Part shown: one piece after another, positions 36,073 to 38,366 of the stretch
How positions within the stretch are numbered: position 1 is the stretch's first letter
How the letters are laid out: each line of letters starts with the position of its first letter
Source of the DNA: Hufsiella arboris
Lineage (GTDB): Bacteria; Bacteroidota; Bacteroidia; Sphingobacteriales; Sphingobacteriaceae
Reading direction: 5' to 3'
Assembly (NCBI RefSeq): GCF_009834875.1
Contig: NZ_WVHT01000001.1
Span: 310,001 to 374,000, forward strand
DNA: 64,000 bases
Translations under genes and position numbers: made by a program
Notes under the pieces: generated by a model
Databases searched by the model: none
Seen by the model: the letters and a program-made list of their open reading frames with translations, nothing else
What the model was told of the DNA's origin: nothing

Positions 36073-36635
36073 TGAGAAAAGCGTTCGTTATAATTGTGTT
36101 GTTATTTTTGGCGGCACTAACAACCCGCGCTCAACAATTTCCTTTGCTCGATAAAAGTCCGGCAGATATCATCTATTTTCCTTTAAAGGCACCCTCAAGT
36201 AAAGATCCGGAGGTTAAACCAATTATTAAAGTCATTTATTCGCGACCGCAAAAAAATGGTCGTGAAATTTTTGGAGTGCTTGAACAGTTTGGCAAAGTGT
36301 GGCGCGTGGGCGCAAATGAATCAACGGAAATCAAATTTTTTGAAACCGTTAAACTGGGCGATAAAAAAATCAAGCACGGAACGTATAGTTTGTTTGCTAT
36401 ACCTAATTCCGATAAATGGATTATTATAATTAATAAGATTACTGATAAATGGGGAGCGTTTACTTACGATCAATCAGCTGATGTGGCGAGAATCGAAGTT
36501 CCTGTAATTAAATCCTCTAAAACTATCGAGGCCTTTTCAATCACTTTTATTCCGACAGATTCTGGTGCGAAAATGATGATGGGATGGGATAACACTATCG
36601 TGGAAGTCCCTTTCGTGTTTTCTGGAAAAAAATAA
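36072..36635 (+). CDS. DUF2911 exported protein
   Basis: The 187-residue protein has a signal peptide (FVIIVLLFLAALTTRAQ) and the DUF2911 pattern: IIKVIYSRPQKNGREIFG, VWRVGANESTEI, GTYSLFAIPN and GAFTYDQSADVAR. The family is common in Bacteroidota; its role is unknown. It is the second gene of a two-gene unit with the small membrane protein. A hairpin begins at its stop codon (36635-36662). Confidence 0.9.
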   Translation: MRKAFVIIVLLFLAALTTRAQQFPLLDKSPADIIYFPLKAPSSKDPEVKPIIKVIYSRPQKNGREIFGVLEQFGKVWRVGANESTEIKFFETVKLGDKKIKHGTYSLFAIPNSDKWIIIINKITDKWGAFTYDQSADVARIEVPVIKSSKTIEAFSITFIPTDSGAKMMMGWDNTIVEVPFVFSGKK

Positions 36636-36662
36636 AGCGTCACAGACGGTGCCGTGACGCTT
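36635..36662 (+). terminator. Hairpin after the DUF2911 gene
   Basis: AAGCGTCAC (36635-36643) pairs with GTGACGCTT (36654-36662) over 9 bp. There is no proper T-run, so it may act as an mRNA end stabiliser; a weaker AGATC/GATCT hairpin with T4 follows near 36684-36705. Confidence 0.5.
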
Positions 36663-36748
36663 CAACCTAAACCTTATCACAATAGATCAACTCGCGTCGA
36701 TCTTTTACTTTAACGCTGGTATTTCATAAATGTTTTCCTAAAAATAAA

Positions 36749-37243
36749 TTATTTGTGAAAAAGTCTTTTCCGTAGCCACCCATCAACCAGATACAGTCCC
36801 AGAATCACATCTGCAAACAAAAATCCCCATAAAACGGATTTATTGATTTTAGAAAATAGTGTTATAGCCGGCAATTTAAACTCTGGCACTTCAAATCCCG
36901 AATCGCTTTGCCATTGTAAATTAGCAAACAACATTACCAGCAAGGCGGAAATTGTCAGTATAAAAAACAACCCGATTCCCCTTACGATATTCTTATTTAC
37001 AATTGACGATACCGAGCCTGGTGCAGGACTAATTTTCACCTGCTCCATTACATTTGCGGTAAAACGCATGGATGGTTCCTCGAGATCAAGCACATTTAAA
37101 CTTTGCTGCAGTTCTATCAGTTGAGCGTATATCTCAGAGTATTGCTCATCATTTTCAATTAAAGCTTTGACTGCCTGATGCTCATTTTCAGGAAGAGTGC
37201 GGTCGATATAATCCCAAACACGTTGCTCAATTAACTGGCTCAT
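36749..37243 (-). CDS. Membrane-bound anti-sigma factor-like protein
   Basis: The 164-residue protein has a cytoplasmic helical N-terminal part (IEQRVWDYIDRTLPENEHQA, with the anti-sigma-like Glu-rich helices). Two membrane helices follow, at about 88-110 (GIGLFFILTISALLVMLFAN) and 138-155 (LWGFLFADVILGLYLVDG). No HxxxCxxC zinc motif is seen. It overlaps the sigma gene by 4 bp (ATGA), the usual arrangement for a sigma and its anti-sigma. The role is inferred from context and topology. Confidence 0.8.
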   Translation of the reverse strand: MSQLIEQRVWDYIDRTLPENEHQAVKALIENDEQYSEIYAQLIELQQSLNVLDLEEPSMRFTANVMEQVKISPAPGSVSSIVNKNIVRGIGLFFILTISALLVMLFANLQWQSDSGFEVPEFKLPAITLFSKINKSVLWGFLFADVILGLYLVDGWLRKRLFHK

Positions 37244-37818
37244 AACAACTCCTTTACTTCATGCTTAAGCATAATTTCTAACTTTTGTTTTAAACGCTGC
37301 CGCGCCCTGTGTAACTTCACTTTTACCGTCTGCGGGTCCATATGCAGGGCCTTGCCGATCTCCTCAAGCGATTGTTCGCCCTTGTAAAACATCGTAATTA
37401 TAGCCGAATCATCCGGAAGCAGCATTTCGATACATTTATTTACATAAAATGATCGTGATCTGTTCTCCGCATAACCATTTGCAGGTGATGCGTAACTTTC
37501 AAGTTCCACACTTACCGTTTCATCATCTATCGAATCCGTTAACAACTGCTTCTTTCGTAGATATGTCATAGAGGTCGTATAAACGATACTATAGAGCCAG
37601 GTGCTGAATTTTGCAGTACGCTGAAACGAATTTAGCGAACGGTATGCCTTTACAAAACAATCCTGCGCAATTTCTTCGGCGCTTTCCCTGCTTTTTGTAA
37701 AACGCATGGCCAGTGTGAAAACAAATCGTTGGTGACGGCCCACAAGCTCCGCATAAGCCTGCTGTTTGCCTGCCAACACTTCTTCAATTAACTCGGTATC
37801 GCTGCGGTATATCTGCAT
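37240..37818 (-). CDS. ECF-type RNA polymerase sigma factor
   Basis: The 192-residue sigma factor has region 2 (about 20-90: RFVFTLAMRFTKSRESAEEI, then AQDCFVKAYRSLNSF and FSTWLYSIVYT) and region 4 (about 130-185: EEIGKALHMDPQTVKVKLHRARQRLKQ, seen as LEEIGKALHMDPQTVK). It is co-translated with the putative anti-sigma. The promoter GTGTAACCT-N16-GTCATAG lies just upstream (37860-37829), and an identical one drives the divergent DUF6249 gene. This indicates autoregulation and a three-gene core regulon. Confidence 0.95.
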   Translation of the reverse strand: MQIYRSDTELIEEVLAGKQQAYAELVGRHQRFVFTLAMRFTKSRESAEEIAQDCFVKAYRSLNSFQRTAKFSTWLYSIVYTTSMTYLRKKQLLTDSIDDETVSVELESYASPANGYAENRSRSFYVNKCIEMLLPDDSAIITMFYKGEQSLEEIGKALHMDPQTVKVKLHRARQRLKQKLEIMLKHEVKELL

Positions 37819-37828
37819 TGTTCAACAA

Positions 37829-37860
37829 CTATGACCACATAACCTTAATACAGGTTACAC
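37829..37860 (-). promoter_or_regulatory. ECF-type promoter of the sigma/anti-sigma operon
   Basis: Minus strand: GTGTAACCT (37860-37852), 16-nt spacer, GTCATAG (37835-37829). It has the AAC/GTC layout of ECF promoters and ends 10 nt before the sigma ATG at 37818. Confidence 0.8.
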
Positions 37861-37908
37861 TTTATGGTAATCATTTACCGAAAAGTCTTTATTATTTTTT
37901 TAACGGAA

Positions 37909-37940
37909 GTGTAACCTCGCTATTTTTCATGTTGTCATAG
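37909..37940 (+). promoter_or_regulatory. ECF-type promoter of the DUF6249 gene
   Basis: Plus strand: GTGTAACCT (37909-37917), 16-nt spacer, GTCATAG (37934-37940). Both elements and the spacing match the divergent sigma promoter; the spacer sequences differ. Confidence 0.8.
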
Positions 37941-38000
37941 CTTTCAGATCAGTTGGTCAATAATTAATAACAACATCGTTTAACATTAAATTTAAATATT

Positions 38001-38366
38001 ATGCCTGGAGAATTAATTCCTATTTTAATCTTACTTGGTTTGTTTGCCATGATTTTTGGATTACGCTACCTGAACAACAAAGAAAACATGGCCATGATCC
38101 AAAACGGAATGGATCCGAAAATAAACAGGCCACAACCGCAGTCTCAACCCTACAAAAATCTTAAATGGGGGTTACTTCTTATGGGATCAGGAGTTGGCCT
38201 GTTTTTGGCCTTCGTTTTAGACAACTTTGTTTTTGATTTAAGAAACAAATGGGGCGATCACCGTCCGGAATCCGTATTCATGTACTTTTCTTTACTTGCC
38301 ATCTTCGGAGGCCTTGGTTTGATTGTTTCCTTCGCAATGGAAAAGAAAACACTGGATACTAAATAA
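38001..38366 (+). CDS. DUF6249 membrane protein
   Basis: The 121-residue protein has three hydrophobic helices: LIPILILLGLFAMIFGL (N-terminal), WGLLLMGSGVGLFLAFVLDN and FMYFSLLAIFGGLGLIVSFA. A conserved cytoplasmic loop lies between the first two (NNKENMAMIQNGMDP). It fits DUF6249. It is divergent from the ECF sigma operon and has the same promoter, so it is probably a direct sigma target and may act in the membrane response it controls. A strong terminator follows. Confidence 0.88.
   Translation: MPGELIPILILLGLFAMIFGLRYLNNKENMAMIQNGMDPKINRPQPQSQPYKNLKWGLLLMGSGVGLFLAFVLDNFVFDLRNKWGDHRPESVFMYFSLLAIFGGLGLIVSFAMEKKTLDTK

Follow-up and report, generated by a model that had tools for sequence, protein, structure and literature searches.

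ECF sigma factors share a general set of hallmarks, namely promoters with AAC and CGT boxes, a co-transcribed anti-sigma factor and autoregulation (review PMC8103513). The SigW-RsiW (Bacillus), RpoE-RseA and AlgU-MucA systems each combine an ECF sigma factor made of regions 2 and 4 with a co-transcribed class I membrane anti-sigma factor, use promoters with an AAC -35 core and a GTC-type -10 element, and are positively autoregulated (PMC8103513). In the CirY-CirZ-Spy system of Phocaeicola vulgatus, a Bacteroidota ECF/anti-sigma pair lies beside an envelope-type target, and deletion of the anti-sigma factor induces most strongly the pair itself and the adjacent envelope genes (PMC13114119). The Das/Dma and EcfO-Reo systems of Bacteroides also couple an ECF sigma factor and a membrane anti-sigma factor to envelope-related outputs (PMC13088901, PMC13114119); the Dma and Reo anti-sigma factors extend as far as the outer membrane, and nigD is among the genes on which they act.

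The locus described here lies in a 64,000-nucleotide stretch of the Hufsiella arboris genome (the window). An ECF sigma/anti-sigma operon is transcribed away from a gene for a DUF6249 protein, and each is preceded by a copy of the same promoter-like element (Table 1). As the hallmarks above are common to ECF sigma factors generally, the module is of a known kind, an ordinary ECF autoregulatory module. It has the domain layout and promoter form of SigW-RsiW, RpoE-RseA and AlgU-MucA, with positive autoregulation predicted, and it differs from them in an apparent regulon that adds essentially DUF6249 alone, in a sigma mRNA predicted to be near-leaderless, and in an anti-sigma factor with two transmembrane (TM) helices and a short intervening loop. 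The likeness to CirY-CirZ-Spy is one of organization, the targets there being a Spy-like chaperone and two other genes rather than DUF6249. Unlike Dma and Reo, the window anti-sigma factor is small and of the inner-membrane type. The preferred reading, to which we assign a probability of roughly 87%, is that both elements are promoters of the linked ECF sigma factor, one of the envelope-stress type, forming a three-gene circuit with DUF6249 as its sole evident output.

Table 1. Features of the sigma/anti-sigma/DUF6249 locus (window coordinates).
Feature	Position	Strand	Basis
Terminator-like hairpin and T-run past the sigma/anti-sigma operon	36633..36664	-	13 pairs; the region would yield about two comparable sites by chance
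Membrane anti-sigma factor gene, 164 aa	36749..37243	-	RsiW profile match, Pfam matches in family members, AlphaFold fold matches
ECF sigma factor gene, 192 aa, regions 2 and 4	37240..37818	-	Sigma70_r2 6e-17, Sigma70_r4_2 3e-11 (Pfam)
-10 element (GTCATAG), sigma promoter	37829..37835	-	Narrow GTC-to-ATG gap across sigma promoters
-35 element (GTGTAACCT), sigma/anti-sigma operon promoter	37852..37860	-	TGTAACCT conserved in orthologs
-35 element (GTGTAACCT), DUF6249 promoter	37909..37917	+	Pattern match and conservation in orthologs
-10 element (GTCATAG), DUF6249 promoter, with upstream extension ATGTT (37929-37933)	37934..37940	+	Pattern match and conservation
Presumed start region (CA, 37945-37946) and 5′ hairpin GATC-AGTT-GGTC, DUF6249 mRNA	37945..37958	+	Conserved CARAT/CAGAAC after the -10 element; start inferred
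DUF6249 gene, 121 aa, three predicted TM helices	38001..38366	+	PF19762 E=7e-22

The sigma factor and its membrane partner

The sigma factor belongs to group IV, as it contains only regions 2 (residues 25-91) and 4 (residues 126-176) joined by a short linker. It matches TIGR02937 (sigma70-ECF superfamily) above the cut-off, and its profile matches the structures of AlgU, SigW and RpoE. The start codon of the partner gene overlaps the sigma stop codon (ATGA), an arrangement found in the window and in most orthologs. A Pfam search with the 164-aa partner gave nothing above cut-off, and its orthologs match RseA_N, zf-HC2 and DUF4880 weakly. Its profile matches RsiW with E=6e-4 (0.065 with a larger alignment), the two having the pattern 'YiDG ... 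FT.NVM' in common. The AlphaFold model has a pLDDT >85 at residues 1-50. Foldseek alone returned no significant match to this model; in the fold comparison the best six matches are RsiW, PupR, MucA (two entries), RslA and the SigK anti-sigma factor, with Z values of 4.7-6.4 that stand above the unrelated rows. Profile and model agree on the N-terminal fold of a class I anti-sigma domain (ASD I) at about residues 1-72, followed by the two helices, and by these signs the product is a predicted two-TM class I anti-sigma factor. The HxxxCxxC zinc motif is absent from the window protein and from the A2/A4 consensus; class I domains that lack it are already known (PMC7406223). About 6% of Bacteroidetes ECF sigma factors are reported beside a class I anti-sigma domain (PMC7406223), which makes this sigma subfamily one of the less common sort for the phylum.

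Identical elements in front of divergent genes

The original prediction held that GTGTAACCT-N16-GTCATAG occurs on both strands with exact identity of elements and spacing, one copy reading into the sigma/anti-sigma operon and the other into the DUF6249 gene. The sequence bears this out: the copies span 37860-37829 on the minus strand and 37909-37940 on the plus strand, the GTC of the first lying 14 nt from the sigma ATG and the second copy 64 nt upstream of the DUF6249 gene. The pattern matches twice in the window against 0.00 in 100 window shuffles. A genome-wide search, proposed as a check against random scatter, finds these two sites only in 4.80 Mb (56 contigs) and none for the reversed pattern. 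The twin pair is far above chance expectation.

The spacers had been described as different, with conservation confined to the functional elements. This holds in part: ATGTN just before GTCATAG is common to both spacers, and in relatives an extended -10 element (TGTN) and an A-rich spacer are conserved in the DUF6249 promoters. The common element reaches further than had been noted, to ATGTNGTCATAG. In form the promoters are of the ECF type, with TGTAACCT-N16-GTC in the window and in orthologs and CGTC frequent at the sigma promoters of relatives.

Promoter position and mRNA leaders

The two promoters are placed differently with respect to their genes. Between GTC and ATG there are 8-16 nt in 77 of 80 sigma promoters, with a median of 12 nt; the corresponding median for DUF6249 promoters is 59 nt. 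With transcription starting about 10 nt past GTC, the narrow gap predicts a sigma mRNA leader of roughly 0-6 nt across loci; for the window the start would fall at about 37823, giving a leader of about 5 nt. The sigma mRNA is therefore predicted to be near-leaderless, its promoter almost touching the ATG. Only about 3.7% of 5′ UTRs in B. thetaiotaomicron are shorter than 10 nt (PMC7366714), and by that standard the predicted leader is unusual. Little besides the boxes is conserved in the sigma promoter, and its position is tightly kept. In L169, L172 and L191 the sequence TAnnTTTG, which has been reported as the -7 element for the housekeeping sigma factor of Bacteroidota, stands just upstream of the ECF -35 element of the sigma gene and could be a source of basal expression.

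In Sphingobacteriaceae the DUF6249 promoter reads, from 5′ to 3′, a T-rich start, GGTGTAACCTG, an A-rich spacer, ATGTNGTCATAG and then CAGAAC or CAAAT about 10 nt past GTC, which is likely to mark the transcript start. The window DUF6249 mRNA would then carry a leader of ordinary length, about 55 nt. Hairpins of the DUF6249 leaders exceed dinucleotide shuffles as a set (z=-8.3, 0/300). The inverted repeat opening the leader varies in letters from lineage to lineage while its pairing is kept (GAAC/GTTC, CACC/GGTG, GATC/GATC, CAAATCA/TGATTTG); the signal is one of the set, and the hairpin is missing in several lineages. A tandem pair of motifs, about 65-100 bp apart, precedes DUF6249 in Chitinophagaceae and allied genomes (L145, L146, L147, L148, L149, L153 and L156).

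Presence and absence within the family

Family genomes were compared as 17 that carry the sigma factor, the window genome included, and 21 that lack it; the sigma factor is missing from the congener G001. These genomes are related and the counts across them are not independent. Both the sigma gene and DUF6249 have the motif upstream in 17/17 sigma-carrying genomes, each copy facing its own gene. In its strict form it occurs at 40 sites in the sigma-carrying genomes versus 2 in those without, the reversed control giving 3 and 5, respectively. Strong DUF6249 matches (E<1e-15) follow the same division (17/17 versus 0/21). Weaker DUF6249 paralogs inspected in sigma-less genomes (L267-L269) adjoin other ECF genes, and the canonical TGTAACC-N17-GTC was not found at them.

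The two distances vary independently of each other. The motif stays with each gene where one or more genes intervene (G021, G034, G043, G007, G031), and in G028 the DUF6249 gene has moved about 17 kb away and retains it. In Pedobacter sp. PLR (L134) a single motif is followed by DUF6249, sigma and anti-sigma on one strand. The spacing between the elements is not conserved, on which ground a palindromic operator is rejected.

Two identical elements in a single intergenic region might also be operators of an ordinary DNA-binding regulator acting between divergent genes, and the letters alone do not name their binder. This is extremely improbable here. The elements may be as little as tens of bp or as much as kilobases apart, and their layout varies from divergent to same-strand, while each element keeps its direction and its place relative to its own gene; both are built like ECF promoters (AAC core, about 16-17 nt, GTC), and their changes follow a residue of the helix with which the sigma factor reads the -35 element. 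The promoter reading is the one carried forward.

Paired promoters change together with the sigma factor

The strongest argument for the linked sigma factor reading both promoters comes from their paired changes and from the region-4.2 residue that tracks them. The scan was run with the AAC core and the set GTC/ATC/GAC fixed beforehand, concordance being tested within those classes, and 27 of 159 loci yielded no site pair; the loci come from related genomes and are not independent. Where an ECF-like site was present at each gene, the two genes share the -10 core without exception (132/132) and the third -35 base in all but three loci (129/132); none of 5000 partner permutations equalled either figure. 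Where the canonical motif is missing, the paired promoters are usually altered alike: both read TGAAAC in L205, L224 and L239, GGAAAC in L213 and L245, and TGCAAC in L261 and L270, while ATC replaces GTC in both promoters of L155, L176, L203 and L214, and GAC does so in L270. Across the 44 loci with no canonical motif at either gene, own pairs still match better than permuted ones (0/5000).

These changes are mirrored in the protein. The third -35 base is T where V or I follows the conserved lysine of the region-4.2 helix (121/122) and A or C where T, A or S follows it (10/10), an association with p=4e-14, uncorrected for ancestry.

The window genome encodes at least 18 other ECF-like genes, one of which might read both promoters, the linked sigma factor being merely a target. 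Such a cross-acting sigma is very unlikely, given that the motif is gained and lost with the linked sigma factor among relatives rich in other ECFs, that the next best paralog is 28% identical, and that promoter classes covary with the linked sigma factor's own residues. Autoregulation and direct control of DUF6249, both put forward in the original prediction, are supported as predictions by the conservation footprint, the tracking of sigma presence by the motif, the relocated DUF6249 gene of G028 that keeps its motif, and the change of the promoter pair together with the -35-reading helix.

Size of the regulon

The element had also been offered as a clean consensus with which to find the rest of the regulon, an expectation that failed: no further site rises above background in the window genome. 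TGTAACC-N17-GTC matches 14 times in the whole genome versus 10 for the reversed control, and the longer pattern with two mismatches 28 times versus 36. With relaxed patterns at background level, there is no evident wider regulon in the window genome, and one marked by two-mismatch sites is rejected, these being no more numerous than in the reversed control.

Two single-mismatch sites occur in the genome. One (L276, G000 C1:616064-616093) is located between two genes, downstream of a PspC-like one and upstream of an outer-membrane-protein-like one, and has most likely arisen by chance. Extra copies of the motif are present in two species of genus g4 (L272 at 1549- and 2480-, L273 at 1586-, L274 at 1523+, L275 at 1545+ and 2623+), a short way upstream of genes for exported proteins, head-GIN-like ones among them, and the GIN-like pair is matched between the two species. 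The g4 sites indicate that the regulon is not everywhere so small and suggest an envelope theme, though they may belong to another sigma factor.

A larger regulon, its remaining promoters being too degenerate to match these patterns, would accommodate both the single-mismatch sites and the g4 sites before GIN-like genes. It is unlikely, since chance alone would give an estimated 1.5 or so single-mismatch sites, the two-mismatch count does not exceed its control, and most sigma-carrying relatives have two to three strict sites each. The small regulon, of sigma, anti-sigma and DUF6249, is retained.

DUF6249 across Bacteroidota

DUF6249 is found in 89 of 296 Bacteroidota genomes, with an ECF sigma gene within about 2 kb at 77 of 80 loci inspected. 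A scan of named genomes added 80 further loci, in Daejeonella, Mucilaginibacter, Pedobacter, Chitinophagaceae, Flavobacteriaceae, Cyclobacteriaceae and Bacteroidales. Among 100 sigma loci analysed jointly (L070 and L125 being the same sequence), the strict motif is present at the sigma gene in 81 and at 78 of 92 DUF6249 genes. On a tree of 172 sigma factors the canonical motif is strongly clustered (19 changes versus 46.7 with shuffled labels), and in the starred clade containing the window sigma factor it is present in 65 of 69. By these comparisons the predicted circuit is conserved over much of Bacteroidota. The two highest DUF6249 scores in the phylum belong to proteins (L192, L193) encoded beside members of a distant ECF clade, in which the canonical motif is missing.

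The window protein is a DUF6249 member by its PF19762 score (77.8 bits, curated cut-off 33). Its AlphaFold model (mean pLDDT 82) has helices at residues 5-34, 52-82 and 91-120. In the fold comparison nothing but helical hairpins of a generic membrane type came up, with Z values (up to 8.3) that helical proteins commonly reach, and a sequence search against solved structures gave no match; both are uninformative on function. No earlier description of a link between DUF6249 and an ECF sigma factor was found in the open-access papers searched, which are not the whole literature; there the family is named in a plant-kinase context only, and no useful pairing of the TGTAACC motif with Bacteroidetes sigma factors was found.

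DUF6249 is the only evident output in the window genome, which favours a membrane effector: most likely it would restore or protect the membrane. Its near-obligate ECF neighbourhood also allows a role in feedback, and possibly it acts back on the anti-sigma factor as well. It might instead be purely a signalling part, one that partners the anti-sigma/sigma pair in the membrane or inhibits it by feedback. DUF6249 is rarely away from an ECF sigma factor (three exceptions among the 80 loci) and is predicted to be sigma-driven and, like the anti-sigma factor, a membrane protein; such a role would however leave the regulon of the window genome with no evident output, and we regard it as a real possibility but not the favoured one. 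The effector remains the preferred role.

A proposed circuit and its significance

In the proposed circuit the sigma factor would be held at the inner membrane by the anti-sigma factor, through its N-terminal class I domain and two TM helices, until released by an envelope or membrane signal. The released sigma factor would then transcribe its own operon, by way of the near-leaderless mRNA, and the divergent DUF6249 gene with its longer leader. Sigma, anti-sigma and DUF6249 would apparently be the whole regulon in the window genome. A bolder version, tentative and rather doubtful, gives a phylum-wide ECF circuit its own dedicated third component in DUF6249, which would be both effector and feedback on the anti-sigma factor. 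The three genes would form a closed loop of membrane homeostasis, its positive arm sped by the near-leaderless sigma mRNA, and the paired promoters would record many natural changes of ECF specificity.

DUF6249 is a widespread family of unknown function, and the circuit gives it a first functional context: in Bacteroidota it lies nearly always beside an ECF sigma gene, often with a visible ECF promoter. The predicted regulon is small enough for complete dissection in a cultured relative, for example Mucilaginibacter or Pedobacter. The many genomes with two promoters per sigma factor, including several apparent -35 and -10 switches, offer natural material for decoding how ECF sigma factors choose their promoters.
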